Source: a virus. Taken from it: a stretch of DNA of 35,130 bases. This document shows positions 1,050 through 34,220 of this stretch, piece by piece. Numbering within the stretch: the stretch's first letter is position 1; every line of letters begins with the position of its first letter. Below the pieces are notes generated by a model. That model made no database searches. It had not been told where the DNA came from and worked only from the letters and a program-made list of their open reading frames with translations. Made by a program: the position numbers and the translations under genes. Location of the stretch: positions 1-35,130 of the IMG/VR virus record IMGVR_UViG_3300046008_000877. The stretch is one strand, 5' to 3'.

Positions 1050-1072
1050 CTTTGTTTAAAAATTGAACATAG
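1050..1072 (-). repeat. 23-bp start-associated palindrome, copy 1
   Basis: This copy begins directly after the stop codon of the 130-residue gene (1073). Read on the minus strand it is CTATGTT, an AT-rich centre, then AAACAAAG. The gene-side arm has CAAAG in place of CATAG and runs into AAAGGGTGGGATGG. Confidence 0.9.
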
Positions 1073-1465
1073 TTACATGAACTTAGTGATAGTATTCACT
1101 GGTGCGCCATCTTGATCTTTGCCTACACCCAGGATAGCCCAGCCTTCAGATCCCTTGATTGCCTCAAGATCAATCTCTGCCGTAGTGTCGATGTCGAAAG
1201 CCTTGAAGAAGTTAATCAAGTCGAGCTTGGACTTGTTAAGGTTCTTCGGCTCCATGCCAGCATGTGGGAGTTCAAGATACTTGCCAAATTCTTTGAAGTA
1301 TGGGTCATCAGGATTTTCAAAGAAGGGCATAATGAAGCGATTTCCCTTCTTCGAAGTCCCCTCAATTATGTTGATGATGCGAAGTTTTGCCTCTGATCCA
1401 GCAGGCAGGACAGTAGGTTCAAATGTGTCAGACAGGTTGATAGAGGTAAGGTCGAGAATAGTCAT
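1073..1465 (-). CDS. DUF669-like / ssDNA-binding-like phage protein (130 aa)
   Basis: ATG 1465 has a good AAAGGA box. Residues 24-48 (GSEAKLRIINIIEGTSKKGN, then RFIMPFFE) and the C-terminal segment EGWAILGVGKDQDG followed by ITKFM match the pattern of DUF669-type proteins. In many phages these lie beside recombination ATPases and nucleases, and are thought to act as single-strand-binding or annealing accessory proteins. Here it follows the Sak4-like ATPase gene, which supports a role in recombination or replication. The assignment is by motif and neighbourhood; no characterised relative was checked. It is followed directly by a palindrome copy. Confidence 0.55.
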   Translation of the reverse strand: MTILDLTSINLSDTFEPTVLPAGSEAKLRIINIIEGTSKKGNRFIMPFFENPDDPYFKEFGKYLELPHAGMEPKNLNKSKLDLINFFKAFDIDTTAEIDLEAIKGSEGWAILGVGKDQDGAPVNTITKFM

Positions 1466-1490
1466 TTTTAGGTCCTTTCATTTAGATGAT

Positions 1491-2297
1491 TTAGATTATT
1501 GTTTTGTCTTCATGGTTGATTTTGGCTTTCTTTAAGATCGCTTTAATGTTGGCTTCTTCATACTGCGACAGCAGACCATCCTTTGCCAACCGAGAACGGG
1601 CAACATAGGTGCCAGTTGATTGAGTGAGGATTCGGTAGTCAACTCCTTTCGAGCCACTTTTTGGGCTCATTACCCAGATCTCGTCAAAGAGAAGAGGGAT
1701 AGTTTGTACACCTTTGCCTGTGGTAGCGTAGCGATAGGATACGCCGCCAGTTACTTCATCCTTGTAGCTTTCCAGGTGGCCAGTTAGGATGAAATCACAG
1801 GGAAGTGAGAGTAGCTCACGTAGCCAGTTACGGATTTCAATCTTTTGTGGGTTATAGTCATGGGTGAAGCGGGGAGCAGCACCGGCCAGGCCAGCACGCT
1901 TCAAGATTTCGTTCATGATAGATTCAGCCCAAGTAGTGCTGCTATCGAGGCAATAAGTGCCAAGCATTTCAAAATAGCCAAGTTGCTCACGCTTAGCCAT
2001 TTCTTTCTTCCAAAGCTCGAAAGCAAAGGGTTTTTTAGGATCTTCATTGCCATAGCGAGAATCGACAATCACTTCACCCTTTTTAATATACTCATCAAGG
2101 CCCTTAGCACCACCAGGGTCGAAAGAGTCAATGTGGACAGGCTTGCGAGCAGTTCTCATCAGGAAGGTCTTTCCACTGCCGCTTTCACCAAGCAATAGAC
2201 AATTGAAGCTATGGTTGCTCTTATCCTCGGCGTACATTGACTGAAGTTTAGCAACCTCCGCTTTTATTTTCAGCATCTTTTCATCGTTCATTTTCAT
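1491..2297 (-). CDS. Sak4-like / RecA-type AAA ATPase
   Basis: This is an NTPase with Walker A motif GESGSGKT near residues 37-44 and a probable Walker B (YCLDSST) near residue 115. The single-domain, RecA-like layout of about 270 residues and the neighbouring DUF669-like and PD-(D/E)XK genes fit phage Sak4-type ATPases, which work with a single-strand-binding protein in strand annealing. Start choice is uncertain. TTG 2321 gives eight more residues, while ATG 2297 or ATG 2291 are more likely; none has a strong ribosome binding site. The start lies inside the end of the upstream 65-codon frame (stop 2281), so coupled translation is likely. Confidence 0.8.
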   Translation of the reverse strand: MKMNDEKMLKIKAEVAKLQSMYAEDKSNHSFNCLLLGESGSGKTFLMRTARKPVHIDSFDPGGAKGLDEYIKKGEVIVDSRYGNEDPKKPFAFELWKKEMAKREQLGYFEMLGTYCLDSSTTWAESIMNEILKRAGLAGAAPRFTHDYNPQKIEIRNWLRELLSLPCDFILTGHLESYKDEVTGGVSYRYATTGKGVQTIPLLFDEIWVMSPKSGSKGVDYRILTQSTGTYVARSRLAKDGLLSQYEEANIKAILKKAKINHEDKTII

Positions 2298-2478
2298 TTT
2301 CCACTTTAGGATTGAGGCCAAGAAAATTGGCTATTGTTTTGTAGATTATTTTAAGTTCATCTTTTGTGTATGAGCAAGAGAACTTCTGGCCATTCTTTCT
2401 TATCAAAACCAGATCAAAAAGTTCTTCTCCGCTACGATTGTGAGTGTAGTGAAAGTCTTGGATTATGTAGGCTTTTAT
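2281..2478 (-). CDS. small ORF apparently starting at ATA (65 aa)
   Basis: This 66-codon frame has no ATG, GTG or TTG near its 5' end. A perfect GGAGG box lies at the right distance before the codon ATA at 2478-2476, giving IKAYIIQDFHYTHNRSGEEL and onward. The protein is polar with a helix (KDELKIIYKTIANFLGL) near the end. It overlaps the stop of the 58-residue gene upstream and the start of the ATPase downstream. This tiling and the GGAGG box suggest it is translated. Alternatives are initiation at an internal TTG near 2400 or loss of the original start codon. Function is unknown. Confidence 0.4.
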   Translation of the reverse strand: MKAYIIQDFHYTHNRSGEELFDLVLIRKNGQKFSCSYTKDELKIIYKTIANFLGLNPKVENENER

Positions 2479-2651
2479 CTTCTTGCCTCCAGTTCTTCCA
2501 GTTCTTCCATGCGCACAAGTAATTCAAGAATCCTTCCTTCAAGCTGACTACAATAATTATTCATCGCAGTGATTTCTTTGTTTCTATTCTCAATTTCTTC
2601 AACAAAATCACCTAAGACATCTATGTTGTAGGTATTTAAAGTAGGTCTCAT
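2475..2651 (-). CDS. small coiled-coil hypothetical protein (58 aa)
   Basis: ATG 2651 sits nine bases after palindrome copy 2, whose altered arm supplies an AAAGGA box. The 58-residue product (MRPTLNTYNIDVLGDFVEEI, then Glu/Leu-rich sequence ending EELEARR) is almost entirely helical, with heptad-like Leu spacing, so a small coiled-coil dimer is likely. Its last codons carry the GGAGG box of the next frame. It sits between the nuclease and the ATPase. Function is not recognised. Confidence 0.65.
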   Translation of the reverse strand: MRPTLNTYNIDVLGDFVEEIENRNKEITAMNNYCSQLEGRILELLVRMEELEELEARR

Positions 2652-2660
2652 TGTTGTTTC

Positions 2661-2683
2661 CTTTGTTTAAAAATTGAACATAG
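2661..2683 (-). repeat. 23-bp start-associated palindrome, copy 2
   Basis: This copy starts immediately after the stop codon of the nuclease gene (2684). On the minus strand the upstream arm is CTATGTT and the gene-side arm is AAACAAAG, followed by GAAACAACA and the ATG of the 58-residue gene. Confidence 0.9.
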
Positions 2684-3646
2684 TTATATCGCAATAGTTT
2701 TCTTGGCTTCTTTTGCCAAAGGATCCCAAAATTCCTTCACAAATCCCATAGGAACATCCCCACACCTATTCAGCGGATTAGGCCAAGCAATGCAGAAAGG
2801 ATGAAAGATACAAAGTTTGCCGTAATCAAGGCAAGCAGAAGAATTAATAGGGAAGTAGCCGAGAACTTCGCCATCAAGAGCATCAGGCCCATTAGCCATT
2901 GAAGTATGATACTTAATTTCTTCAAAAATCCAGTTAATACGTGAGAGCCAAACTTGCATTTGGTCTTTGGATTTTGCGATAGGCTCACGAATGAATTCCC
3001 AAGGGAGTTTGTTCTTAGTTCTGCCAGTTGCATTTATATCCTTCCAGCTATTTTTAGCTTTAGAAATAAAAAGACCATTCATAGTTATGCAGTCAACTTC
3101 GTTTTGACCAAAGAGACAATTTAGTGCGTGGGTGTAAGTGCCAACTTGCACACTCAACAACCATTGCTCAGCCCACAAGTAGGTGCTGGATGCAGTTTTA
3201 TGTTCAAGGGAGAACACTTTTCCACTTTTGCGATCCCTAAGGATTGAATCCATCCGTAGGGCGATAGAGTCAACTCCATTAATAGCCACAGTGCCAGCTA
3301 TTTCGGTGTAGAGGACATCAAAGTTTTCGAGATCACGTTTGTAGTTGTTAGCATAAGCATTCAAAATGTGAAAGAAATTTTGGGGAGTTTTGGGTTCGAA
3401 GATTTCATCTTGGCTTTCACTAAAAGTTTTGCGATATTCAGCCAGGAATAGATCAAAGGCACCCATGATGCTGTTGTTGTCATAGCCATTCAGCAGCAGA
3501 TGCTCAAGAGCCACATGGACAGCAGAGCCAAAAACAAGGTGATTTGAAATTGTCTCACTTTGCCAGCCAAGATAATGGCGATACATGTAATAGCGAGGGC
3601 ATTTTAGAAAGTCATTTATTTTGCTTGAGTCAAGAACAAGTTCCAC
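2684..3646 (-). CDS. PD-(D/E)XK nuclease, RecB/Cas4-like with probable Fe-S cluster
   Basis: The 320-residue protein shows the RecB-family motifs in order: GSAVHVALEHLL (residues 40-51, His44), the catalytic Asp133 in RMDSILRDR, and Glu148 and Lys150 in SLEHKTAS. Four cysteines, Cys16 in KCPRYY plus Cys272, Cys279 and Cys285, are spaced as in the 4Fe-4S exonucleases Cas4, AddB and viral relatives. It is likely a 5'-3' single-strand exonuclease for replication or recombination, working with the ATPase, DUF669-like protein and ligase of this arm. The start is GTG 3646, with GGAG eight bases upstream. Family membership is confident; substrate and polarity are inferred. Confidence 0.85.
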   Translation of the reverse strand: MELVLDSSKINDFLKCPRYYMYRHYLGWQSETISNHLVFGSAVHVALEHLLLNGYDNNSIMGAFDLFLAEYRKTFSESQDEIFEPKTPQNFFHILNAYANNYKRDLENFDVLYTEIAGTVAINGVDSIALRMDSILRDRKSGKVFSLEHKTASSTYLWAEQWLLSVQVGTYTHALNCLFGQNEVDCITMNGLFISKAKNSWKDINATGRTKNKLPWEFIREPIAKSKDQMQVWLSRINWIFEEIKYHTSMANGPDALDGEVLGYFPINSSACLDYGKLCIFHPFCIAWPNPLNRCGDVPMGFVKEFWDPLAKEAKKTIAI

Positions 3647-3660
3647 TTTGTTTTCTCCAT

Positions 3661-3954
3661 TTAAAGGATTATTACTCGTTCAATATATTCTTTGTTTTTA
3701 GCGTTCCACAATAGCAGATTGAGGCGTTTGTGCAGGTTAGCAAAATAGGCACAAGCAATGGAGTTCATAATAGCCAGGCCACTTAGCAGCAGATAATCAC
3801 CAGGCTCAGATAGGTCAAGGGATTCTCCAAACTTGCGATACATAGCCACGCAGTCGAAGCGATTTAGGTTACCCTTTGACATGAAAACCAGAGAGCCAAA
3901 CTTTTCAGCAGAGCTGTAGTCATGGCAACTTTTGTTTACTATATAAACGTTCAT
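3661..3954 (-). CDS. conserved-looking hypothetical protein (97 aa)
   Basis: The 97-residue product begins MNVYIVNKSCHDYSSAEKFG and ends in a helical Leu/Ile-rich stretch. It looks like a compact alpha/beta domain: an N-terminal strand, then the segment DYLLLSGLAIMNSIACAYFA near residues 53-72. I recall similar small proteins in other phages without a known function, but cannot name a family. The ATG lies 2 nt after the stop of the 64-residue zinc-finger-like gene and its own stop is 14 nt from the nuclease start, so all are cotranscribed. Confidence 0.6.
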   Translation of the reverse strand: MNVYIVNKSCHDYSSAEKFGSLVFMSKGNLNRFDCVAMYRKFGESLDLSEPGDYLLLSGLAIMNSIACAYFANLHKRLNLLLWNAKNKEYIERVIIL

Positions 3955-3956
3955 AG

Positions 3957-4151
3957 TTATTCATCCTTGTCGATGAAATAATACTGGTGACTTGCTCTAC
4001 AGGCAAGAATGATTTTGTTATCTTCAATATGACAGAAAGGACATCGGTCAGAGCAGGGGCGTTGCTTTTCAGGGCAAGTCATAGTCATGCCATTGCGAAT
4101 TAGGACTTGCTCACTCTGGCCTTCATTCAGCACATATTCACGAAGTTTCAT
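3957..4151 (-). CDS. small Cys-rich, probable zinc-binding protein (64 aa)
   Basis: The product is MKLREYVLNEGQSEQVLIRN followed by a cysteine cluster CPEKQRPCSDRCPFC and a further Cys and His (CRASHQYYF). Spacing of the cluster (C-x6-C-x3-C-x2-C) suggests a zinc knuckle, perhaps a nucleic-acid or protein-binding adaptor. The gene starts 3 nt after the stop of the 69-residue gene and ends 2 nt before the next ATG. The exact family is unknown. Confidence 0.6.
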   Translation of the reverse strand: MKLREYVLNEGQSEQVLIRNGMTMTCPEKQRPCSDRCPFCHIEDNKIILACRASHQYYFIDKDE

Positions 4152-4154
4152 TAG

Positions 4155-4364
4155 TTATATCTCCATTATTTTGTATTTAACTGCTTCATTCACAGCATTA
4201 AGGAGAGACTTATTTGAATCAAAAGACATTCCGCCGACCAGGATGTGATAGTAGTCAACATACTTCACATCAAGCATTGGACGGATGGCACTACATTCAG
4301 ATATATCAATGTAAGCGCCAGGGAAGACTTTTTCAAGTTTGTCAAGAGCTTCTTTTCTTGTCAT
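4155..4364 (-). CDS. small hypothetical protein (69 aa)
   Basis: The 69-residue product starts MTRKEALDKLEKVFPGAYID and ends NAVNEAVKYKIMEI, an alpha/beta mix with no recognised motif. Its ribosome binding site, AGGAGG five bases from the ATG, is formed by the end of palindrome copy 3 plus the next four bases. It opens a run of small coupled genes downstream of the ligase. Function is unknown. Confidence 0.6.
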   Translation of the reverse strand: MTRKEALDKLEKVFPGAYIDISECSAIRPMLDVKYVDYYHILVGGMSFDSNKSLLNAVNEAVKYKIMEI

Positions 4365-4373
4365 TTTAGCCTC

Positions 4374-4396
4374 CTATGTTTAATTTTTGAACATAG
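4374..4396 (-). repeat. 23-bp start-associated palindrome, copy 3 (perfect arms)
   Basis: Both arms are intact (CTATGTT / AACATAG). It lies 3 nt after the ligase stop codon, behind a second in-frame TAA. On the minus strand the final AG runs into GAGG, giving a perfect AGGAGG for the next gene. It is the only gene-proximal copy that keeps the perfect palindrome. Confidence 0.9.
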
Positions 4397-4399
4397 TTA

Positions 4400-5254
4400 T
4401 TAGACAACTTCCACAAAAACTGGAAACCGAGGGACTTGTTTGCCAGGAGTTAGATGCTGGTATTTAACACGTAGTTTACGACCAACAAGTGATTCTTTTT
4501 CAAGCCAAAGTTGGGCAGATATTTCATCTGTCAGGCCAGAGCCACAAGAGAATATGTTACCAGTTTCACCTTTGCAAACAAGAGCACCGATTGTTTCCTT
4601 GCCATAGCCATTTTTATCAGTTTCTTCTTTCCAACTCACGATTTCATAGATATCTTCCTTTGCAGGTTTGAACTTCATTAACAATTGAGATCGAGATCGC
4701 TGGTACATGTTTTCACAGTGGCGCAAGATAATCCCCTCATATCCCATAGCCATATAGCGATCCAGCATACTCATAGCTTCAGTTAGTGATGAAATTAGAG
4801 CAAAAGGGACACGAACGATAGGCCAGATAAAGTAAAGATTGTTAAGAGCAACAAGCCGCTCCATTTGATTTTTAGACTCATCAATCAGATCAAAAACGTG
4901 GTACTCGATTTCACCAATGTTAGCGTGAGTTGTTATGCGACTGCTTGCACACCGAGAATGGATTTCCTCAAAGCTCAAGCCATGTGCATAGAGTTCTCCA
5001 TCAAGCTCAATTCCGGGGTTGTATAGGTGGAAATCATTTAGAGCTTTTTGGATGTGAGGTATTTGACGAAAAATAGCCTCACTGGATGATAGCATGACAG
5101 GCCAAGGGAGTTTAGTTCCCTCAACAATATCCACTGACCTACAACGCTCACCATCGAGTTTTGGTTGACAGATGTAAGGAGGTTGCCACTTTGCAAGTTT
5201 GCGTTCATCCAAAGGATTGCAGAGCATTATACCAGATCTTTTTGCGAGTTGCAC
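4400..5254 (-). CDS. ATP-dependent DNA ligase
   Basis: All nucleotidyltransferase motifs are visible in the 284-residue protein. Motif I is KLDGER with the AMP-accepting Lys32; motif III is ELDGELY (83-89); motif IIIa is EYHVFDLID (117-125); motif IV is YEGIILR (172-178); motif V is LLMKFKP (191-197, Lys194/Lys196). A short OB-fold-like C-terminus (GRKLRVKYQHLTPGKQVPRF) follows. It has the minimal two-domain layout typical of phage ligases that seal nicks in replication or repair. Start GTG 5254 has GGGAG eight bases upstream. It begins just after a hairpin terminator, so it may head its own transcript. Confidence 0.93.
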   Translation of the reverse strand: MQLAKRSGIMLCNPLDERKLAKWQPPYICQPKLDGERCRSVDIVEGTKLPWPVMLSSSEAIFRQIPHIQKALNDFHLYNPGIELDGELYAHGLSFEEIHSRCASSRITTHANIGEIEYHVFDLIDESKNQMERLVALNNLYFIWPIVRVPFALISSLTEAMSMLDRYMAMGYEGIILRHCENMYQRSRSQLLMKFKPAKEDIYEIVSWKEETDKNGYGKETIGALVCKGETGNIFSCGSGLTDEISAQLWLEKESLVGRKLRVKYQHLTPGKQVPRFPVFVEVV

Positions 5255-5294
5255 TTTAGATCTCCCTCATTTTTGTACTTTTGTCCATAATGAA

Positions 5295-5354
5295 AACCCA
5301 CTTAGAGTTGTTTCAATAAGCACATTTGGTTATTGTTTGCTCTCTAAGTGGGCT
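5295..5354 (-). terminator. probable terminator between the 110-aa gene and ligase
   Basis: A perfect 11-bp inverted repeat (positions 5297-5307 and 5342-5352) encloses a 34-nt loop. On the minus strand the 3' arm CTCTAAGTGGG is followed by TTTTC. It lies 18 nt beyond the stop of the 110-residue gene, so a leaky intrinsic terminator is the best reading. The long loop makes it weaker than usual. Confidence 0.55.
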
Positions 5355-5370
5355 TAGTTGGTGATAGCGA

Positions 5371-5703: not shown

Positions 5704-5777
5704 TTTTTCAGATCCTTTCAATTTACAGATTGTTGCCGTTATTGGCATTTGATGGGTAATTCCCATTGATGAAACAC

Positions 5778-5806: not shown

Positions 5807-5932
5807 CAATTATTTTCATTAATGATTTCAATGGTTTATGACCAAAAAATCACATATTTGTTTGGCATATATATTGCATACATCCTATGGCCACCAACTA
5901 AACATAGCAATTCGAGATAGGGTGATGAACTG

Positions 5933-5955
5933 CTATGTTTAATTTTTGAACATAG
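5933..5955 (-). repeat. 23-bp palindrome, copy 4 (perfect arms, no adjacent start)
   Basis: Both arms are intact. It lies 5 nt after the stop of the 111-residue secreted-protein gene, with no start codon close by; the next gene starts at 5703. An extra half-site (AAACATAG) lies about 30 bp to the left near 5900. The intergenic stretch 5704-5932 otherwise holds only the promoter at 5778-5806. Confidence 0.9.
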
Positions 5956-5960
5956 GTGGG

Positions 5961-7362: not shown

Positions 7363-7385
7363 CTTTGTTTAATTATTGAACATAG
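7363..7385 (-). repeat. 23-bp start-associated palindrome, copy 5
   Basis: On the minus strand it reads CTATGTT, an AT-rich centre with one unusual base (ATTATT instead of AAATT), then AAACAAAG, which continues GAG to form the ribosome binding site of the 58-residue gene. Confidence 0.9.
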
Positions 7386-7902: not shown

Positions 7903-7925
7903 CTTTGTTTAAAAAATGAACAGAG
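7903..7925 (-). repeat. 23-bp start-associated palindrome, copy 6
   Basis: Gene-side arm AAACAAAG runs into GAGG. The far arm is CTCTGTT, the only copy in which this outer arm differs from CTATGTT. It sits directly after a hairpin terminator, so it marks the start of the next gene cluster. Confidence 0.88.
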
Positions 7926-9046: not shown

Positions 9047-9067
9047 TAGTTATCCTTTCATGTGTTT

Positions 9068-9131
9068 AATTGTTGACAATTGTTCAATTTGAATTGTATG
9101 GTATCATTGAATTGGCGAATTGTCAACAATT
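9068..9131. promoter_or_regulatory. paired palindromic operators with face-to-face promoters
   Basis: Two near-identical 14-bp palindromes, AATTGTTGACAATT (9068-9081) and its reverse complement (9118-9131), lie 50 bp apart centre to centre, about five helical turns. Each contains a TTGACA box pointing inward. The minus-strand promoter is TTGACA-17-TACCAT, leading into the 74-residue gene; the plus-strand one is TTGACA-18-TATGGT. Their -10 boxes overlap at 9097-9103. The arrangement suggests a repressor-controlled early switch. Confidence 0.6.
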
Positions 9132-9222
9132 AATTTCGTAATAAAATGCAATAAAATCACATGGTTATAAAATGAATTTTAATTGATCCCAATTACAAAA
9201 TCCCAAATGATTTGATGTTTTA

Positions 9223-9416
9223 AATCATGGGGCACCCTCCACCACCGCCCGTGAACATAGTTGGTTATAGATGATCTTAGTTATTATATTCTTACTATTA
9301 TAAAAAAAAAAGAATAATATATATAAAAAAAAATAATAATAAAGATAACAACCACCTAAAGACCACCACTACCACCCAACTATGTTCAAAACCGGAAAAT
9401 GGGGTGCCCCATGATT
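9223..9416. repeat. nested inverted repeat around AT-rich core, candidate origin
   Basis: An outer perfect 15-bp inverted repeat (9223-9237 / 9402-9416, AATCATGGGGCACCC) and an inner perfect 13-bp one (9252-9264 / 9376-9388, TGAACATAGTTGG) flank an almost pure A/T stretch (about 9280-9350). The inner arms are half-sites of the 23-bp palindrome. AAATCATG recurs at 9222, 9426 and 9441, like iterons. No gene lies within. A replication origin is the leading idea; it is inference. Confidence 0.5.
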
Positions 9417-9472
9417 GAATGATTGAAATCATGATAACATGAAATCATGCAAACAATCAATTGTGGCCTGCC

Positions 9473-9495
9473 CTATGTTCAAAAAATAAACATAG
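9473..9495. repeat. 23-bp palindrome, copy 7 (perfect arms, no adjacent start)
   Basis: Both arms are intact. It lies beyond the 3' end of the 53-residue gene (9562) and beside the candidate origin. No start codon with a ribosome binding site follows on either strand. The 66 bp between it and 9562 show nothing else. Confidence 0.9.
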
Positions 9496-9561
9496 CTGGC
9501 CTCCAAACCACTGGTCTCCAGCTATCACCTATACCGACATCAAAAGTTATCGTAACTAAAG

Positions 9562-9723
9562 TTAAAATAAAAAATCTATATCCAAACCATCTGCAATGTC
9601 ACAAATATGCTCGAAGAATCCTAAAGTGTGTTGAATCGCTAATAAATCCAAAAAGTCACAAGTCCAATGACTAATCTCCCGGCCAGTAATGTCTGATAAC
9701 ATCAAAAAATGCAAAAGTGTCAT
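9562..9723 (-). CDS. small hypothetical protein with strong RBS (53 aa)
   Basis: I translated this frame directly: MTLLHFLMLSDITGREISHW, then TCDFLDLLAIQHTLGFFE and an acidic end ICDIADGLDIDFLF. A perfect GGAGG lies five bases before ATG 9723. The box is inside the 42-residue frame upstream, with a 53-nt overlap. The protein is hydrophobic and acidic with three Cys. Function is unknown. The opposite-strand frame over the same DNA has no ribosome binding site and reads through a palindrome copy. Confidence 0.55.
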   Translation of the reverse strand: MTLLHFLMLSDITGREISHWTCDFLDLLAIQHTLGFFEHICDIADGLDIDFLF

Positions 9724-9799
9724 AACTGCCTCCATTCACAGCATCGCTGTGTGTCGGCATAAGTGATAACTGGAAATCACCAAAGCCACTGACCCTCAT
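9671..9799 (-). CDS. very small hypothetical protein (42 aa)
   Basis: I translated this frame directly: MRVSGFGDFQLSLMPTHSDA, ending FFDVIRHYWPGD. A GGAG box lies seven bases before ATG 9799. The gene follows the 158-residue gene after 45 nt and overlaps the 53-residue gene. Its first codons lie inside an imperfect 24-bp inverted repeat, with a degenerate partner at 10427-10450. It could be a leader peptide coupling translation of the next gene. Function is unknown. Confidence 0.45.
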   Translation of the reverse strand: MRVSGFGDFQLSLMPTHSDAVNGGSYDTFAFFDVIRHYWPGD

Positions 9800-9844
9800 G
9801 TGAGCACTCCAATTGAAGTGCCCTGTTAGTGTTAATCGCTATCG

Positions 9845-10321
9845 CTAATCATCATCTCCATCTAAAACATCTGCCATCGTTACTGTGGGCTGCAAAATGG
9901 GCTGTGCCAATGTTGGCTGTGGTGTCTGGGCTGTCTGAACTGGGCGCTTAACCTGTGGTGGTGCCATTACTGGATCTCCCACATGTTCCATTGCCCAGCT
10001 GATGAACTGATCTCTGCGATCTGGGGTCATCCTCAAAAAAACTGTCTCAACGCTAACTGTGGTGCGCTTACCTGCTGGAGCATACAAACTCTTCACGTTA
10101 ACTCGCTGAATGCCAACTCCTAATCTCAAAAAGTCATCCCTGTTGAGGCTCCTGCAGTGCGCTTGCCATGTCACCCTTGGACTCTGACCTCCACTGAGCA
10201 GGGTCATCATCTCCTGCATGTCATAACCTGTGAAATCAAACTCCACCTGTGCGGTCACTGTTGCAACCGTCACGCCATTAGCTATCTGGGAAATCCTGAT
10301 CTGTTGAACCGGTGCTATCAT
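9845..10321 (-). CDS. hypothetical protein with Pro/Gln linker and acidic tail (158 aa)
   Basis: Start ATG 10321 has a strong GGAGG seven bases upstream. The N-terminal 110 residues (MIAPVQQIRISQIANGVTVA and on) alternate strands and helices, with FDFTGYDMQEMMTLL and basic patches (QAHCRSLNRDD). Then comes a Pro/Gln/Thr-rich linker (about 118-145, KRPVQTAQTPQPTLAQP) and a short acidic end, ADVLDGDDD. A folded domain, disordered linker and acidic tip recall single-strand-binding protein architecture, but no OB-fold motif is clear. It is the gene nearest the divergence point on this arm. Confidence 0.65.
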   Translation of the reverse strand: MIAPVQQIRISQIANGVTVATVTAQVEFDFTGYDMQEMMTLLSGGQSPRVTWQAHCRSLNRDDFLRLGVGIQRVNVKSLYAPAGKRTTVSVETVFLRMTPDRRDQFISWAMEHVGDPVMAPPQVKRPVQTAQTPQPTLAQPILQPTVTMADVLDGDDD

Positions 10322-10342
10322 GTGATACCTCCATTGTGTGAA

Positions 10343-10372
10343 AATGTACGTTAAAGTGGCTGTCCGAATCAA
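10343..10372 (-). promoter_or_regulatory. possible promoter for the 158-aa gene
   Basis: On the minus strand TTGATT (10372-10367) and TACATT (10348-10343) are 18 bp apart, ending 22 nt before ATG 10321. The boxes are only moderately close to consensus. Confidence 0.35.
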
Positions 10373-10404
10373 CTAAACCCGGCCGCCCTATCTATAACCC
10401 TCTA

Positions 10405-10547
10405 ACACCGCAGGTGTCGAAGTTGAAGTGCTCACATGAAGACCAGTGGCTAACACTGGCAACCATCTAATGGACGAAGTCCATGCTGGCTCCCAATGAC
10501 CCGCTTCGGGATTCCCGCCTGCCAACCATAAGCTGGTTGCTGGGAGT
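10405..10547. ncRNA. cluster of perfect small hairpins, candidate structured RNA
   Basis: Six stems follow one another: ACACC-gca-GGTGT (10405-10417), CCAGTG-gctaa-CACTGG (10443-10459), ATGGAC-gaa-GTCCAT (10470-10484), and an outer CTCCCA/TGGGAG pair (about 10489 and 10541). The outer pair encloses CCCG-ctt-CGGG (10500-10510) and CAACC/GGTTG (10523-10539). Three have 3-nt loops. GCAACC (10459-10464) could alternatively pair with GGTTGC (10535-10540). No gene overlaps on either strand. It may act as a structured RNA or as DNA hairpins for protein binding; strand is unknown. Confidence 0.4.
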
Positions 10548-10655
10548 GCTGAATGTCAAAGATCTCGTTGCTGGCCACTGAGTGTGTCTAATGTATCCAA
10601 TGGCCCTTATGCTGATTGAAAAATCTGATGCACGCAATCATAGTGTGGTTCGAAA

Positions 10656-10692
10656 CATACTATGACCAGTTTAGTTTTTTAGACATAGTATG
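10656..10692. repeat. 9-bp perfect inverted repeat CATACTATG
   Basis: CATACTATG (10656-10664) pairs with CATAGTATG (10684-10692) around 19 nt that include a T6 run. A related CCTACTATGCC follows. It may be a weak terminator or a protein site unrelated to the 23-bp palindrome. Confidence 0.4.
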
Positions 10693-10867
10693 ACTCGAAG
10701 CCTACTATGCCTTCCTTCCACTTGCCACCATCATACACTGTTGGTGGCTATTGTCAAGGCCCTTGCCCTGACCACTTTGTTTGTCGCTTTCGTTAAATAC
10801 ATAATACATGATCCCAGTGGTTTGTCAACTTTCACATTCCCATGGCTGGAGTGATTTGCCATGTGAA

Positions 10868-10890
10868 CTATGTTCAAAAAATGAACATAG
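10868..10890. repeat. 23-bp palindrome, copy 8 (perfect arms, intergenic)
   Basis: Both arms and even the GTTC/GAAC steps are symmetrical here, making it the most perfect copy. It lies in the large intergenic region with no gene start nearby. Confidence 0.9.
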
Positions 10891-11557
10891 CCACAACCAA
10901 TCTCATGAAAATCCAAAGGGGGATGATCCTCCCTTCGGTCGGACAATAGCATTGAGTAGGAAATATATAAGATTTTGAATACCCACAAATATGTGTAATT
11001 AACGTGGTGCACGCCTTCATACCACATTTGGCAACCCATACAATCCAACACACCATGCGCCCAGCGCATTGTGGTGGTCATTTGGCGGCCATTAATGGCC
11101 ATTTCCAACAACAAATACCACCACCCCGACCAACCCGCCAACAACACTAACCAATCGAACGTAGTGAGGAATGGCCAGATAGCGACTCTGGTAGCGGTAG
11201 CGGCACTATGCTGAAAGCGGCATTTGTGTTGGCCTTTTGTTAGGTGAGTTAACGTGGTGATGATGGTGGATGGGTGGTGGTTGGTTGGTGTGATTCATCA
11301 TGGTGTGGTGGTTGCGTGTTGTGGTGGGCATTGTGGGGCGTTTGAACGGCATTTCCGCCCATAATCACATCCCGCCAACCACATTGCCCCGACCGTAGGG
11401 AGTGTATGTTAATCTAAATGTAGTGAGGAATTTGCCCCGAGCGTAGCGAGTTAGATAGGGATAGCGACAGCGATAGCGGCTAAGATCGCAATAGCCGCTA
11501 TGTGGCGACCAAAGGGAGCAAAACAAACCAGATTTAAACTATGGTGATAACAACTGT

Positions 11558-11626
11558 ATCGCGCAACCAGTAATTTTGCGCGATTAAGGTGACTTGGCGG
11601 AAAATTTCTGCGCAACCAAAGGTTGC
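11558..11626. repeat. two hairpins sharing GCGCAACCA
   Basis: ATCGCGCAA / TTGCGCGAT (11558-11566 and 11576-11584) forms a 9-bp stem with a 9-nt loop. GCAACC-aaa-GGTTGC (11612-11626) follows. Both contain GCGCAACCA. They lie 20-90 bp upstream of the main rightward promoter, so they may be regulator or terminase binding sites. Confidence 0.4.
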
Positions 11627-11645
11627 AATTGTGGGAAATAATGGG

Positions 11646-11674
11646 TTGACATCTTGGTAAAAATGTTGTAATGT
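11646..11674 (+). promoter_or_regulatory. sigma70-type promoter of the rightward arm
   Basis: TTGACA (11646-11651), 17 bp, TAATGT (11669-11674): identical boxes and spacing to the leftward promoter at 5778-5806. The leader to ATG 11711 is about 30 nt and includes AAAAAGG. It is probably host-polymerase driven. Confidence 0.7.
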
Positions 11675-11710
11675 GGTTTTAAAATCTTCACACCAAAAAG
11701 GCAACTTTGC

Positions 11711-12261: not shown

Positions 12262-12284
12262 CTATGTTCAAAAATTAAACAAAG
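12262..12284 (+). repeat. 23-bp start-associated palindrome, copy 9
   Basis: It lies 2 nt after the TerS-like stop codon. The gene-side arm is AAACAAAG followed by AGG, giving the ribosome binding site for the 1244-residue fibre gene 14 nt later. Confidence 0.9.
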
Positions 12285-16359: not shown

Positions 16360-16382
16360 CTATGTTCAAAAATTAAACAAAG
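16360..16382 (+). repeat. 23-bp start-associated palindrome, copy 10
   Basis: Gene-side arm AAACAAAG continues GG, nine bases before ATG 16392. The sequence is identical to copy 9 over all 23 bp. Confidence 0.9.
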
Positions 16383-20405: not shown

Positions 20406-20428
20406 CTATGTTCAAAAATTAAACATAG
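20406..20428 (+). repeat. 23-bp palindrome, copy 11 (perfect arms)
   Basis: Both arms are intact. The next start codon (ATG 20456) is 27 nt away and has its own GAAGGA box, so this copy does not form the ribosome binding site. Confidence 0.9.
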
Positions 20429-22614: not shown

Positions 22615-22637
22615 CTATGTTTAAAAATTGAACATAG
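22615..22637 (+). repeat. 23-bp palindrome, copy 12 (perfect arms, extended)
   Basis: Both arms are intact, and symmetry extends outward to TAACTATGTT / AACATAGTTA, giving a 10-bp stem. The next start (22672) is 34 nt away with its own AGAGGAA box. Confidence 0.9.
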
Positions 22638-25050: not shown

Positions 25051-25371
25051 TTGCCTGAAGAACGTCGTGCAGCAGATATAAAACTGGATGGTATTGAGAA
25101 GAAACTTGAAGAACATTCATCAGTTCTAAATGAAATGCGAGATACTCTCCAACAAATTGCAGTTCAAAACTACATGATTCAATCTATGCAAGCTCAGATG
25201 ACTGAAGTTCGTGGAGATGTTAATGAGTTGTATAAGCGACAAGAATCTATTTTGACTTTCCAGGCTAGTTGTCCAAAAAGTAATCTACACGTTCTGTGGG
25301 GAGTAATAGTCACATCTGTTGTTGGTATGATAGGTGCTTTTACTGCTCATGTGATGGGCGGTGGCAAATGA
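25051..25371 (+). CDS. holin/XhlA-like membrane protein (106 aa)
   Basis: The start is TTG 25051, with CTGGAGG at good spacing; no ATG is available nearby. Residues 8-70 form a charged coiled coil (LDGIEKKLEEHSSVLNEMRD and on) and residues 80-103 a transmembrane helix (LHVLWGVIVTSVVGMIGAFT), then a Gly/Lys tail. Such coiled-coil plus C-terminal helix proteins are common next to endolysins, as in XhlA-type hemolysin or holin partners. The stop overlaps the ATG of the response regulator, so the two are translationally coupled. Confidence 0.65.
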   Translation: MPEERRAADIKLDGIEKKLEEHSSVLNEMRDTLQQIAVQNYMIQSMQAQMTEVRGDVNELYKRQESILTFQASCPKSNLHVLWGVIVTSVVGMIGAFTAHVMGGGK

Positions 25372-25739
25372 AGAAGATACTTGTGATTGATGATAGTCAC
25401 TTTGCAATTCACACACTTAAAAACTGTCTGCGTGGAAAATATGAAGTAGTTGCTCTATGTATGGCTGAGCATGCACTTGAAATGATAAAGGTTGAAAAAC
25501 CAGATTTGGTCTTACTTGACATTATGATGCCTGTGATTAATGGTATAGAATTGTTGAAGCAAATTCAGTTGGATTTATCTATGAGAATTATTCCAGTAAT
25601 TATGCTAACATCTATAATGAATGTTGAGGTTGAATCAGAGTGTCTTAAACTTGGCGCAAGAGATTTCATCCGTAAGCCTTTCAATATCGAGATGTTAATT
25701 TCCAGAATAGAAAATGCCATAAAATACACGGAATGCTGA
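25368..25739 (+). CDS. stand-alone CheY-like response regulator receiver
   Basis: The 123-residue product has every receiver landmark: acidic pair Asp8/Asp9 (ILVIDDS), phospho-acceptor Asp51 (LVLLDIMMP), Thr81 (PVIMLTS) and Lys103 (FIRKPF). There is no output domain. The start overlaps the holin-like stop (ATGA) and the endolysin starts 2 nt after its end, so it is embedded in the lysis cassette. A receiver here could sense host phosphorelay status, titrate a host kinase, or time lysis; none of these is established. The frame could also start at 25296, adding a fused Cys-rich piece, which is unlikely. Confidence 0.92.
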   Translation: MKKILVIDDSHFAIHTLKNCLRGKYEVVALCMAEHALEMIKVEKPDLVLLDIMMPVINGIELLKQIQLDLSMRIIPVIMLTSIMNVEVESECLKLGARDFIRKPFNIEMLISRIENAIKYTEC

Positions 25740-26579: not shown

Positions 26580-26676
26580 TGTGGTAGCTGGAGTTGTTGG
26601 AGATGAGGGAGTTTGGGAAAGTGTAAAAGGGATTTTCTCTTGGATCATTGATTGTATTGCTATGTTCAAAAAATGA
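26446..26676 (+). CDS. small membrane protein overlapping the previous gene (76 aa)
   Basis: AAGGAG lies five bases before ATG 26446. The product MIAMNILAVITALPGLVKLI has an N-terminal hydrophobic helix, a Gln-rich coil (RELMQQLQEQLGPG) and an amphipathic C-terminus (VWESVKGIFSWIIDCIAMFK). Its last codons, including TGA, are written by palindrome copy 13. A holin or lysis regulator is possible. The two overlapping frames each have a good ribosome binding site. Confidence 0.55.
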   Translation: MIAMNILAVITALPGLVKLIRELMQQLQEQLGPGTGVEKKKVVLDVVAGVVGDEGVWESVKGIFSWIIDCIAMFKK

Positions 26677-26682
26677 ACAAAG
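26660..26682 (+). repeat. 23-bp start-associated palindrome, copy 13 (inside gene end)
   Basis: Gene-side arm is GAACAAAG, continuing GG, six bases before ATG 26689. The left part lies in the coding frame of the 76-residue gene and gives Met-Phe-Lys-Lys-stop. Confidence 0.9.
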
Positions 26683-30828: not shown

Positions 30829-30830
30829 TT

Positions 30831-31037
30831 ATGCTAACCAAAAGTGAACTTGAAAGATTTATAGATGATCCAGTGTGGAAAGTTTTTAGAGAAGAGTTAC
30901 AATCTATCCACGCTAATGTTATGGCGAGTATACTATGTATGGATGAACCACTTCAGATCTATCGGGCACAAGGAAGATCCGAAGTGCTGATCGATATGAT
31001 GAAGTGGCCTGAGATGCAGCTTGAAGAGCTTGACTAA
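30831..31037 (+). CDS. small head-module protein (68 aa)
   Basis: The product MLTKSELERFIDDPVWKVFR, with EELQSIHANVMASILCMDEP and IYRAQGRSEVLIDMMKWPE, is helical. Short proteins of this pattern commonly follow portal genes in phages of this type and have no assigned function. AAGGA precedes the ATG, 2 nt after the portal stop. Palindrome copy 14 begins directly after its stop codon. Confidence 0.65.
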   Translation: MLTKSELERFIDDPVWKVFREELQSIHANVMASILCMDEPLQIYRAQGRSEVLIDMMKWPEMQLEELD

Positions 31038-31060
31038 CTATGTTTAAAAAATGAACAAAG
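31038..31060 (+). repeat. 23-bp start-associated palindrome, copy 14
   Basis: Gene-side arm GAACAAAG continues GAG, giving AAAGGAG 12 nt before ATG 31073 of the scaffold gene. The far arm begins right after the stop TAA. Confidence 0.9.
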
Positions 31061-31072
31061 GAGAGTGATCTA

Positions 31073-31918
31073 ATGGAAACTGATGAAAGCCAAAAGGAAC
31101 AAGTCGATAGTATGTTGTCTGACTTTTTTCCATCTTCTGAACAACCTGTTGAAGAACCTGTTGCTGAGGAGCCAGCGGATGAAACGAAAGGGGAAGAAAG
31201 CCAAGCTGATGAAGGAGAGACAACAAAAGAAGAAGTTACTGATATTGAAGATAAAGAAAGAAAAGAAACACCTGCAGAGATCACGCCAGTAGCAGAAGAA
31301 GTCCAAGTTGCTGATGATGAGATCACCACAATCAAGAAGCAGAATGAAATCTTGATGCAGAGGATAGAGGAATTATCTGGCAAGATCATGGAGCCAGCGA
31401 AAGTTGCTGAACCACAAGTGCAAGAGAGCCAGACAAATCCAAGTGTTTATGATATCATAGGTGACAACGATATAGATGATGTGCTGGCGAGTAAAGAGCT
31501 TTTCAACTCTGCTATCTCAAAAGCTATGAAAATGGCTGAAGAGAGTGCTGTGCAGAAGATCTTCACCAGCTTACCTCACATCGTGATGAAGCAGATGCAA
31601 CAGCAGTTCACTATCAAGCAGGCCACAGATGAGTTCTATCGTGATAACCCAGACCTTGAACCAGTGAAGAAAACTGTGGCGGCTGTAGCGAATGAAATTT
31701 ATAGTACAAATCCACAACTTTCAGTTGTAGAAATATTCCAAAAATCAGCAGAGAAAACAAGGGAGATATTAGGCCTTCGGAAACAAGCGACAAGATTAGT
31801 CAACGAGCAGGGAAGGATGCCGGAGTTGGTGAAAAGAACGCAGGGGAATAGAGAGAAAATGAAGATTCCTAATGTAGATAAAATGCAGCAGGAATTGTCG
31901 GATTTACTTAATTTCTAA
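31073..31918 (+). CDS. scaffolding protein
   Basis: The 281-residue product is very acidic in its first 100 residues (METDESQKEQVDSMLSDFFP, then Glu-rich runs), has a coiled coil (ITTIKKQNEILMQRIEELSG, about 85-104) and a helical C-terminus with basic charge (VKRTQGNREKMKIPN). Length, charge split and position between portal and capsid gene match phage scaffolds, which direct procapsid assembly and leave or are degraded before DNA entry. The ribosome binding site comes from palindrome copy 14. Confidence 0.8.
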   Translation: METDESQKEQVDSMLSDFFPSSEQPVEEPVAEEPADETKGEESQADEGETTKEEVTDIEDKERKETPAEITPVAEEVQVADDEITTIKKQNEILMQRIEELSGKIMEPAKVAEPQVQESQTNPSVYDIIGDNDIDDVLASKELFNSAISKAMKMAEESAVQKIFTSLPHIVMKQMQQQFTIKQATDEFYRDNPDLEPVKKTVAAVANEIYSTNPQLSVVEIFQKSAEKTREILGLRKQATRLVNEQGRMPELVKRTQGNREKMKIPNVDKMQQELSDLLNF

Positions 31919-31933
31919 TTGGAGGTATTTTAA

Positions 31934-32302
31934 ATGGAAAGACGTCATGAAAGAATTAATAGTGATATGCTGGACAGCTCTAGAGGATTTAATGGTCTTG
32001 TGATTAATCTTACCACAGCTGTTCCTACATATCAAATGAAGGCTGTAGATCAGAATATCAGAGCAACTTCTGATGTGGCTGATGCTTCTGGTATTATCAC
32101 GTTACCTAGTATGGCTGAGGCATGTGGGAAGTTCTATTATATCAGTGCTCCTACCGGTGCTGCTGGTGGTGATATCTCGCTGTATGTGAAAGAAACAGCG
32201 ACTGAGCTTACCACTGTTGGTGACTTGGATGCTGATGGAGATTGGGTTATGCTGTTCTGTGATGGCTATGCTTGGAGAACAATTACCAGTGGTGTAGCAT
32301 AA
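31934..32302 (+). CDS. small structural protein before the capsid gene (122 aa)
   Basis: The product MERRHERINSDMLDSSRGFN is followed by beta-rich sequence (ASGIITLPSMAEACGKFYYI; DISLYVKETATELTTVGD) and Gly/Asp turns. It sits between scaffold and major capsid protein, with GGAGG before the ATG. A capsid cement, decoration or vertex role is likely from position and beta-rich composition; no family is assigned. It shares its general character with the 178-residue neighbour. Confidence 0.6.
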   Translation: MERRHERINSDMLDSSRGFNGLVINLTTAVPTYQMKAVDQNIRATSDVADASGIITLPSMAEACGKFYYISAPTGAAGGDISLYVKETATELTTVGDLDADGDWVMLFCDGYAWRTITSGVA

Positions 32303-32312
32303 GGAGGTTTGA

Positions 32313-32849
32313 ATGTTTAATACTAAAGCTTTATCAAAAAGACTTCATGTGATTGAGACAAAGTTGGCAACTGTGGATGCTCTTCTCGATTACAAAGGTT
32401 GGCAGTGTTTGGAAAAATCTGATGGCACAGTGCCAGCAAATACAACTGATAGTCTATTCACAATTGCTGGAGGTCCTATTCATGCCAGGATTTTTGGGAT
32501 TGTAACTACCGTCATTGGCGCTACTGCGGCAAATGGTACTTTGCAAATGACTACTACTAGTCCATCTGCCACTGTGGCAATCAGTACTGCTGTATCAGTT
32601 GCAAGTGCTGCGGCTGGTAGTGCAATTCACTTTGCAACTGTGGCTGCTGGCACTGTTCCAGTTTTGACTATCACTGCAAATGGTATTAACTGGTATGATC
32701 CTGCCACAGCTACAAAATTGCCAGCTGAGTTCTTCTTGCCGCCTGGGACTATTAAGTTTCATAGTTCTGCTGCAAACACTGGTAATATCAAATGGTACTT
32801 GTCATTTGTGCCTCTTTCTACTAACACTGTAGTAACTGTTGCTGATTAA
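32313..32849 (+). CDS. small structural protein before the capsid gene (178 aa)
   Basis: Residues 1-30 are helical (MFNTKALSKRLHVIETKLAT). The remainder is Ala/Thr/Val-rich and beta-patterned (ARIFGIVTTVIGATAANGTL; AIHFATVAAGTVPVLTITAN), ending GNIKWYLSFVPLSTNT. AAGGAGG lies before ATG 32313. It is likely a decoration or cement protein, perhaps partnering with the 122-residue protein. This is inference from position. Confidence 0.6.
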   Translation: MFNTKALSKRLHVIETKLATVDALLDYKGWQCLEKSDGTVPANTTDSLFTIAGGPIHARIFGIVTTVIGATAANGTLQMTTTSPSATVAISTAVSVASAAAGSAIHFATVAAGTVPVLTITANGINWYDPATATKLPAEFFLPPGTIKFHSSAANTGNIKWYLSFVPLSTNTVVTVAD

Positions 32850-32871
32850 TTTTTGAAAGGAGATTTATAGA

Positions 32872-34158
32872 ATGAACGGATTCTTAGGTATGCGTGGTAC
32901 TGGTAATTGGGGAACAGATGAAAGACCTACTAACTTTCGTGAAGGGATTTTGTATCTGTATCCTAATGGGGAAATGCCTCTTACAGGTATTATGAGTAAA
33001 ATGGGATCGGAGAAGGTTGATGACCCGCAGTTCAGCTGGTGGACTAAGGGTTTGCCAGAACAGGCTGGGACAGTTGCAGATGTTTACACTGATGCAGCGT
33101 TGTCAACTGCTTATACCACTGGCGGTGCTGTTGGTGATGTGCTTTATGCGAAAGTAGCTGCAGCTGTTGAGAGCGAGATTCGTATAGGTCATATGGTTAT
33201 GCTACGTAATACTGCGAACTATCTCGATGATACCAGAGCGAAAGTTGTGGCAACGCTGAGCAACGGCGCAAGTTCTTACATTGCGTGTAAGTTGCTGCAG
33301 GCCGATCCTACCACCAATGGCATTGCTGATGTTAATCGGATCTTGGTAATTGGTAGTGTGAACCCGGAAGGTGGAGCTATGCCTTCTGCTATCAGCTACA
33401 GCCCGACCAAGTTTTATAACTACACTCAAATCTTCCGCACTTCACTAAGTATCACTCGTACTGCCAGACTTACCAAGTTACGGACGAAGGCTCAGTATGA
33501 AGAAAGCAAACGTGAGGCACTCCAGCTGCATGGTATTGAGATGGAGAAAGCCTTCTTGTGGTCTGTTAAGAGCGAGTTGACAGGTGCTAATGGAAAGCCT
33601 GAGAGAACTACTGATGGTATTATTCCTTTTATGCTTGCTAATGGTGCAGTTAATTCTGACTTTTCCACTTCAAGCGATTTCACCAATAGCTATTGGGTAG
33701 ATAAAGGTGAGGAATGGTTGGATACCCAGTTGGAGACCTTATTCCGCTATGGTTCCAGCGAACGTCTTGCGATTTGTGGTAGTGGTGTTATCCTTGGCAT
33801 TAACAAGCTGGTTAAGGCTTATGGTAACTACACTTTTACCCCACAGACCAAGAGCTATGGTATTAAAGTAATGGAATGGGTTACTCCGTTTGGTACTATT
33901 TATATGAAAACTCACCCGTTGTTTTCGTATGAAACAACTAACCGCAACAGCATGGTCTGCTTGGATATGAGTAATTTGAAGTATAAGTATATTACTGATA
34001 CTACATTTTATGCTGATGCTGAAAAGCAGAACACTGGGCGGAATAGGATTGATGGCACAGATGAGGAATATCTGACTGAGTGTGGTCTTGAGATTCATCA
34101 TCCTACCACATTTGCGTACCTGAGTGGCTTTAACACTGACAATGGCACTCCGGCGTAA
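32872..34158 (+). CDS. major capsid protein, SU10-type (DUF5309-like)
   Basis: The 428-residue product begins MNGFLGMRGTGNWGTDERPT and contains FREGILYLYPNGEMPLTGIM, FSWWTKGLPEQAG, YNYTQIFRTSLSITRTARLT and EMEKAFLWSVKSELTGANGK. Together these match the SU10-like major capsid protein family (DUF5309), an HK97-fold shell protein. A strong AAAGGAG box precedes the ATG. Position after scaffold and before the adaptor agrees. A hairpin and a palindrome copy follow the gene. Confidence 0.9.
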   Translation: MNGFLGMRGTGNWGTDERPTNFREGILYLYPNGEMPLTGIMSKMGSEKVDDPQFSWWTKGLPEQAGTVADVYTDAALSTAYTTGGAVGDVLYAKVAAAVESEIRIGHMVMLRNTANYLDDTRAKVVATLSNGASSYIACKLLQADPTTNGIADVNRILVIGSVNPEGGAMPSAISYSPTKFYNYTQIFRTSLSITRTARLTKLRTKAQYEESKREALQLHGIEMEKAFLWSVKSELTGANGKPERTTDGIIPFMLANGAVNSDFSTSSDFTNSYWVDKGEEWLDTQLETLFRYGSSERLAICGSGVILGINKLVKAYGNYTFTPQTKSYGIKVMEWVTPFGTIYMKTHPLFSYETTNRNSMVCLDMSNLKYKYITDTTFYADAEKQNTGRNRIDGTDEEYLTECGLEIHHPTTFAYLSGFNTDNGTPA

Positions 34159-34171
34159 CAACTAACTCATG

Positions 34172-34198
34172 GTGACAGATGCTGTGGTGGTCTGTCAC
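34172..34198 (+). terminator. hairpin after the capsid gene
   Basis: An 8-bp perfect stem (GTGACAGA / TCTGTCAC, 34172-34179 and 34191-34198) has an 11-nt loop, 13 nt after the capsid stop. A T5 run follows only 10 nt later, inside the palindrome, so termination would be weak. mRNA protection is an alternative. Confidence 0.45.
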
Positions 34199-34220
34199 TA
34201 TGTTCAATTTTTAAACAGAG
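34198..34220 (+). repeat. 23-bp start-associated palindrome, copy 15
   Basis: Gene-side arm is AAACAGAG and continues TGGAGG, the ribosome binding site of the adaptor gene ten bases later. The far arm CTATGTT overlaps the end of the capsid hairpin by one base. Confidence 0.88.

Follow-up and report, generated by a model that had tools for sequence, protein, structure and literature searches.

Proteins of the ParB/Noc type join an N-terminal ParB-CTPase domain to a helix-turn-helix (HTH), and crystal structures show that their residue 173 bonds guanine when it is arginine and adenine when it is glutamine (PMC7383237). KorB of plasmid RK2 is a CTP clamp of the same family that uses a dozen OB sites dispersed on a mobile genome, silences promoters at distances that reach beyond 1 kb and has a small DNA-binding partner, KorA (PMC11790492). 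Fusions of a ParB-CTPase domain with a DNA methyltransferase are frequent in phages, with a role that is only suggested in a 2025 survey (PMC12704722), and Bce_0392 of Bacillus cereus has been described as such a ParB-methylase (PMC5512222); as far as the excerpts of these earlier accounts go, neither a DNA site nor a recognition code is described for them. Here we analyse a 35,130-base virus record (IMG/VR IMGVR_UViG_3300046008_000877, called the window throughout) with fifteen copies of a 23-bp palindrome, and propose from sequence comparison that the palindromes are probably parS-like loading sites, spread genome-wide, for a phage ParB-HTH-methyltransferase fusion. Among the matches listed in a search of open-licence PubMed Central papers, judged by title and the start of the abstract, none dealt with these palindromes or assigned a DNA site to phage ParB-methyltransferase fusions.

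Compared with ParB/Noc, the candidate reader has the same ParB-CTPase N-domain and HTH, and the palindrome would be read by a dimer. Residue 145 of the fusion takes the place of residue 173 and follows the same arginine-guanine and glutamine-adenine code (PMC7383237), here by co-variation only. On the other hand, the sites are 23 bp long and not 16, the methyltransferase domain replaces the ParB C-terminal dimerisation domain, no ParA passed the cut-off in any of ten near-complete records, and each genome has many dispersed sites. In parS the base that is read lies about 6 bp from the dyad, and so does the predicted one in this palindrome. With KorB the fusion shares the family and the dispersal of sites, and a small ribbon-helix-helix (RHH)-like protein encoded beside it might be a partner of the KorA kind (PMC11790492). 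Unlike those of KorB, the sites here are over-evenly spaced and lie also inside genes. For KorB, the position of sites is given with respect to promoters, and the protein is not known to carry a methyltransferase.

The original prediction, made from the letters of the window, had likened the palindromes to the stoperators of phage L5 and to the start-associated sequences (SAS) of cluster K mycobacteriophages with their extended versions (ESAS). L5 has more than 20 stoperators across its genome, partly in short intergenic spaces, and they are 13-bp, asymmetric and orientation-dependent, with an immunity repressor that binds as a monomer (PMC9283540). SAS is a 13-bp asymmetric element with AGGAG that overlaps the ribosome binding site of some genes, and ESAS consists of 17-bp repeats with a variable spacer (PMC3203893). 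Both parallels are analogies, and the elements are not the same thing: we deal with one fixed 23-bp palindrome that is found also away from starts and inside open reading frames (ORFs), and whose candidate reader, a ParB fusion, belongs to another protein family than the L5 repressor.

Palindromes in the window

All fifteen palindromes are exact and were found at the positions that had been predicted:

1050–1072, minus strand: follows a TAA stop and precedes the RHH-like gene of the ParB cassette
2661–2683, minus strand: CAAAG arm; TAA stop on one side, ATG of a 58-aa ORF 9 nt away on the other
4374–4396, minus strand: symmetric CATAG arm, then GAGG; 9 nt before a 69-aa ORF
5933–5955, no strand assigned: no start of an ORF of at least 30 aa within 60 nt on either strand
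7363–7385, minus strand: 11 nt before a 58-aa ORF
7903–7925, minus strand: 10 nt before a 43-aa ORF
9473–9495, no strand assigned: between the two arms of the window; overlaps only a doubtful 75-aa ORF
10868–10890, no strand assigned: between the two arms; overlaps only a doubtful 138-aa ORF
12262–12284, plus strand: CAAAG arm, 14 nt before a 1244-aa ORF
16360–16382, plus strand: CAAAG arm, 9 nt before a 131-aa ORF
20406–20428, no strand assigned: symmetric outer arms; possible GTG start 9 nt off
22615–22637, no strand assigned: symmetric outer arms; 34 nt before a 108-aa ORF
26660–26682, plus strand: CAAAG arm, 6 nt before a 215-aa ORF
31038–31060, plus strand: abuts a TAA stop; CAAAG, then GAG, 12 nt before a 281-aa ORF that comes after the portal gene and one short ORF
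34198–34220, plus strand: CAGAG arm, 10 nt before a 241-aa ORF that follows the major head protein gene

The strict pattern (CTATGTT, 7–11 bases, AACATAG) matches six times in the window and never in 100 shuffles. A weight matrix built from the fifteen copies scores them at 28.7–35.1, against 10.2 for the next best site of the window and 15.4 for the best one across 200 shuffled windows, so the set is discrete; the same kind of search in relatives yielded 452 matrix-scored sites in 63 records. The copies are regularly spaced within each arm of the window, with eight gaps of 1.4 kb on average in the left part of the window (coefficient of variation, CV, 0.26) and six gaps of 3.7 kb in the right part (CV 0.22). 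Half-site-like remnants are seen at 5885 (matrix score 10.2) and 9380 (8.9), 48 and 93 bp from full sites.

The asymmetry of the arms is as had been described. CAAAG or CAGAG forms the gene-side arm in nine of the ten near-start copies; at 4374, the remaining one, the arm reads CATAG and GAGG comes next. CATAG is retained in the five far copies. Two copies are edge cases of this division, namely 1050, whose distance is 1 nt to a GTG and 55 nt to the ATG that yields the 84-residue form of the RHH-like protein, and 20406, counted as far despite its possible GTG. The claim that copies always lie at junctions or in intergenic DNA is fair for the window, where 7363, 9473 and 10868 overlap only doubtful short ORFs, but does not extend to the family, in which 110 of the 452 sites are inside ORFs. 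The region 9050–11700 between the two arms, with the symmetric palindromes 9473 and 10868, has few clear genes (one 175-aa ORF, 9845–10372) and is a candidate origin or control region.

Lineage versions of the site

The large terminase of the window is 100% identical to that of two other records, G001 (52.4 kb) and G002 (51.5 kb). Its nearest relative in a named phage is that of Desulfofustis phage LS06-2018-MD01 (described in PMC10370329), at 42.5% identity; the next record has 27.6%. The exact palindrome pattern was matched in 54 viral-contig stretches, and a looser one (up to two mismatches) in 25 of 25 records built from these stretches and from terminase relatives, with zero matches to a reversed control pattern in all but one of them. 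The Desulfofustis phage carries a different palindrome, near CTATGTCCCAANTTGGGACATAG, in six near-copies.

More relatives were gathered by family scans of the ParB-methyltransferase (the best 80 loci each of 343, 517 and 105 confirmed relatives), and 227 records were scanned, including some that overlap as parts of a single contig. When their palindromes were clustered de novo, length-23 families of at least three members appeared in 122 of the 227 records, as compared to 0 of 227 shuffled records and 5–7 of 227 at even lengths. Lengths 21 (77 records) and 25 (112 records) also score, because they are nested in the same sites. The half-site differs from lineage to lineage of these uncultured phages: next to CTWTGTTYAA there are, among others, CTWTGGGGAW, CTATGTCCCA, CTATGGAAAA and CTATGTTACA, and further CTWTGGTAAT, CTWTGTCCAA, GWTCGTTTAA and GWTAATTAAA. 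At least three clustered sites and a near-full ParB were present in 110 records; removal of 47 that were at least 95% identical to a retained one left 63 for the comparisons below.

A host-derived regulatory element was considered and rejected: 257 Gb of bacterial and archaeal genomes gave four exact-pattern stretches where about one is expected under equal base frequencies. Seven protein families of the clade, searched at these four loci, gave one marginal match only (p130, E = 0.003).

The predicted reader of the palindromes

One end of the window carries a small cassette:

1–516, minus strand: N-terminal 172 residues (ParB-CTPase domain and HTH) of a ParB-HTH-N6/N4-methyltransferase fusion, cut by the window edge
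37–117, minus strand: HTH of the fusion, residues 134–160; residue 145 is Pro (82–84), recognition helix 145–160 (model of the G001 protein, sequence)
740–1048, minus strand: small RHH-like cassette protein, conserved in an alignment and encoded next to the fusion gene, 102 aa from GTG or 84 aa from ATG
513–737, minus strand: 74-aa ORF between the RHH-like and ParB-methyltransferase genes, no family match

The full-length fusion of G001 has 443 aa (42321–43652, minus strand), and the common core of ten near-complete genomes includes a protein of 430–450 aa with ParB_N, HTH and N6_N4_Mtase domains and an RHH-like protein near it. In the G001 protein, PF02195 is matched at 44.8 bits (cut-off 26.3) and residues 231–426 are N6_N4_Mtase; there is no ParB C-terminal dimerisation family among its domain matches. 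The N-terminal part matches Noc in Foldseek (E = 1.3e-10), and the C-terminal fold matches beta-class methyltransferases. The ParB nucleotide motif G[GE]RR is kept in 63 of 63 representatives and methyltransferase motif IV, DPPY, in 62. Motif I (FxGxG) has GSG in all of the top variants, which make up 54 of the 63, and the order of motifs, IV then I, is that of beta-class N6/N4 enzymes.

In the 63 non-redundant records, six phage proteins were compared with the sites (ParB fusion, RHH-like, Sak4-like, p130, nuclease and Pol), and their variable columns, 1892 in all, were ranked by adjusted mutual information with each half-site base; the small terminase and the 74-aa ORFs were left out of this comparison. 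The best predictor of base 6 is ParB column 145 and that of base 8 is ParB column 144. Base 1 is led by ParB column 154, and base 5 by ParB column 133 with column 145 third. Residue 145 is related to base 6 in a way that makes chemical sense: His or Arg goes with G (10/12 versus 0/51 of the others, P = 5e-10), Gln goes with A (3/3 versus 1/60, P = 1e-4), and the remaining residues go with T (47/48). Outside the set of 63, a further Gln protein (L290) has A in three of four half-sites; among 20 more records with two clustered sites, two with Ile145 (L138 and L140) have A in some half-sites, and the pair of sites in L304 looks like chance.

Shared ancestry was modelled by letting each base evolve along a tree built without the HTH, with runs more than three changes off the observed number discarded. 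The observed association was matched in 0 of 663 accepted runs for base 6, 0 of 1088 for base 7 and 0 of 970 for base 8. In the model of the G001 protein residue 145 starts the recognition helix, and the turn G142-x-S144-x145 is laid out like G170-K171-S172-R/Q173 of ParB. A profile alignment pairs 'gvsk' of the fusion with GKAR of Spo0J, weakly so (2.7 bits, not significant alone). By these comparisons residue 145 is the predicted counterpart of ParB/Noc residue 173, and the case for the ParB-HTH-methyltransferase fusion as the reader of the palindromes is a strong one.

The original prediction had a dimeric phage protein bind the sites. A phage-encoded DNA-binding protein is indeed the likely reader, and co-variation points to the ParB fusion; the reader is likely a dimer because the site is symmetric. 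The candidate binders proposed at that time fare worse: the 182-aa protein is the small terminase and probably not the reader, and the 74-aa proteins, two ORFs without a family match over the cut-off, are probably not readers either.

Placement and spacing of the sites

Gene contexts of the 452 sites were taken from a simple tiling of ORFs of at least 60 aa, which overlooks small genes and includes some false ORFs. Tandem junctions hold 262 sites, ORFs 110, convergent junctions 47, divergent junctions 16 and record edges 17. Random positions fall inside ORFs in 82.5% of cases, so the sites avoid coding DNA. Relative to their number, convergent junctions are richer in sites (47/184) than tandem (262/1619) or divergent ones (16/151). 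Sites at tandem junctions stand at a median of 18.5 nt before the start, and the stop codon is at a median of 4 nt from the site. As many as 31 of the 54 ORFs of at least 900 aa contain a site, and since these internal sites carry the palindrome of their own lineage, the encoded peptides differ between lineages.

The spacing is more even than chance would give. Its variation is below the mean of a uniform null in 38 of 38 records with at least six sites, and below the mean of a random-junction null in 37 of 38; Fisher-combined P-values are 3e-18 and 7e-28, respectively, with related phages treated as independent. Doublets within 100 bp were merged in the data and not in the nulls, which biases the result slightly toward evenness.

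None of the 19 core gene families tested is always marked by a site. Among families present in at least 45 records the commonest places are after p130 (31/61), after the ParB gene (26/62) and after a primase-like gene (26/58), and among those in 10–14 records it is after the major head protein gene (7/10). A site lies within 100 bp upstream of the RHH-like gene in 22 of 60 cassettes.

The change of arm shape seen in the window was borne out in relatives. For lineages with CTW-type half-sites, the middle of the arm has a purine on the gene side in 58 of 75 sites at most 14 nt from a start and on the distal side in 26 of 75 (Fisher exact test, P = 2e-7), and in 150 of 300 arms of far sites; thus the change is real and general. 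This Shine-Dalgarno-like arm looks like a packing compromise, the simplest account being that a site squeezed in between stop and start has to provide the Shine-Dalgarno sequence as well.

Weighing of explanations

We propose that the palindromes serve as parS-like loading sites of the ParB-CTPase/HTH/DNA-methyltransferase fusion. The fusion would bind each site as a dimer, with one HTH per half-site, and once loaded would act over a few kb of flanking DNA, either as a sliding clamp or by bridging, so that sites at intervals could cover the whole phage genome. The methyltransferase domain would then modify phage DNA selectively, as a mark or against restriction, possibly with an added effect of the fusion on transcription. 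Placement mostly between a stop and the next Shine-Dalgarno sequence could result from the scarcity of non-coding DNA, and where a site abuts a start its arm would be tuned to double as Shine-Dalgarno. Loading, action over kilobases and an attached methyltransferase agree with sites that are evenly spaced, lie also inside ORFs and seem indifferent to the type of junction. What the bound protein does is inferred; it may be marking of DNA, control of transcription or compaction.

A number of results weigh against the loading-site explanation or against the fusion as the reader. ParB column 192 comes first for base 7, with column 146 of the HTH third; columns of other proteins come first for bases 2, 3, 4 and 10, and ParB column 241 does so for base 9. 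In a partial Mantel ranking for bases 6–8, columns 192 and 386 stand above the HTH columns 149, 146 and 145, which rank 3, 4 and 7 of 369. The base 1 association was matched in 31 of 1289 tree simulations and carries little weight because it is confounded with one deep split. Independent-pairs tests gave mostly three concordant and no discordant pairs and are under-powered. There are exceptions to the code at residue 145: one protein (L150) goes with base-6 A despite Pro145, and two of the 12 His/Arg proteins, both His, go with T. Individually only 14 of 38 records have P < 0.05 for spacing under the uniform null and 22 of 38 under the junction null. In one record (L145) the spacing does not exceed the junction null in evenness, and gaps of 7–11 kb between sites are seen in several phages. 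The fusion of the Desulfofustis phage (L133, 10342–11634) has DFPY for DPPY, the sole case of 63, and its catalysis may be lost or dispensable. Finally, five more distant ParB-methyltransferase phages (L333–L337, including Mel-JY34 and MW202489) have no 23-bp palindrome family in stretches of 26–40 kb of each, and their shorter palindrome clusters resemble chance, so the site system looks like a trait of one large group.

The main rival keeps the same binder and takes the sites for operators or roadblocks of a genome-wide silencer, KorB- or stoperator-like, at promoters and junctions, with the methyltransferase in feedback. The predominance of tandem-junction sites and their short distance from starts speak for it, as do the sites that closely precede the RHH-like gene or follow the ParB gene, and KorB is a ParB-family CTP clamp that silences at a distance (PMC11790492). 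Operators would hardly be expected to be relatively commonest at convergent junctions, to lie inside giant ORFs, to be overdispersed along the genome and to leave every core gene family unmarked in some records; the palindrome is also symmetric, in contrast to the orientation-dependent L5 stoperators (PMC9283540). We consider a silencer of this kind rather unlikely, although it deserves more credit than any of the other alternatives. The same giant-ORF and convergent sites, overdispersion and lack of a universally marked core gene make gene-start control unlikely as the main purpose. The original prediction held that the sites couple transcription to translation of marked genes, in the manner of SAS/ESAS; the Shine-Dalgarno-tuned arm agrees with it, but this bias is confined to the gene side of near-start sites and the lineage-specific sequence of the site follows an HTH and not a ribosomal feature, so that the coupling claim was not supported and we give it very little probability.

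Another reader might be the RHH-like protein, the ParB pattern then reflecting shared ancestry. This protein, proposed as a binder from the start, co-occurs with the fusion (206 and 217 of 227 records, respectively) and adjoins it, its gene often has a site directly upstream, and its columns 26, 16, 14 and 35 are in the ten best for base 3, with column 39 ninth for base 5, which counts against the fusion. On the other side, none of its columns is in the ten best for bases 6–8, its strand residues RLSIE are identical across lineages with GGGG- and GTTCAT-type sites, and it is ParB residue 145 that obeys the known ParB/Noc code (PMC7383237). The RHH-like protein is therefore probably not the reader, and we see hardly any chance for it in that role. 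It has a ParD match below the cut-off, and its AlphaFold model (pLDDT 80) gave no PDB match in Foldseek at E up to 10; possibly it is a ribbon-helix-helix protein and a candidate partner of the fusion. The slimmest chance belongs to an RNA hairpin acting in mRNA processing, termination or translation control. Inverted repeats located between genes might suggest one, but the window sites have a C·A mismatch at columns 8/16 in 11 of 15 and A·A at columns 3/21 in seven (columns being oriented by gene, with two or three of the 15 sites lacking a clear gene direction). Each half-site varies on its own, which fits a dimeric DNA site but not a conserved RNA stem, and the palindromes had no match in Rfam. 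An RNA element was rejected on these grounds.

Other features of the phage group

A partition system was considered and rejected, since ParA (PF13614) was over the cut-off in none of the ten near-complete records. Sub-cut-off ParA-type (AAA_31) matches of about 40 residues are present at the N-terminus of an ORF of 317–324 aa (G001, 36214–36330; G002, 34437–34556), among the ten records only in these two closest relatives of the window. The tyrosine integrase family PF00589 was found in none of the ten; the records may be fragments, and serine integrases were not searched for. Two of the distant fusion phages, Microcystis phage Mel-JY34 (L333) and MW202489.1 (L336), have the module of nuclease, Sak4-like ATPase, ParB-methyltransferase and Pol seen in the group of the window, with no RHH-like match and no palindrome family in the stretches examined.

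Two further ORFs of the window gave matches:

3661–3954, minus strand: in the replication arm, matches the cyanophage Pam3 gp32-like family PF23992 (E = 3e-13)
25296–25739, plus strand: beside an endolysin-like gene, matches PHROG families of unknown function (E to 4e-26); we take it to resemble a response-regulator receiver domain

Implications

With these sites a large group of phage ParB-CTPase/methyltransferase fusions gains a predicted DNA site, together with a residue-level code that appears to re-use that of ParB/Noc. The pattern at the genome scale, with even spacing and sites within giant genes, limits what the roles of the fusions could be. One tentative possibility, which we put forward with reserve, is self-marking: a ParB-type nucleotide clamp equipped with a methyltransferase would load at regularly placed palindromes, spread and methylate the phage genome selectively, while host DNA without sites would be left unmarked and each lineage would have a site language of its own. 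If this is true, loading and spreading would be a means of steering methylation toward phage DNA. For work on the evolution of ParB specificity, the many natural pairs of site and predicted reader offer ready material.

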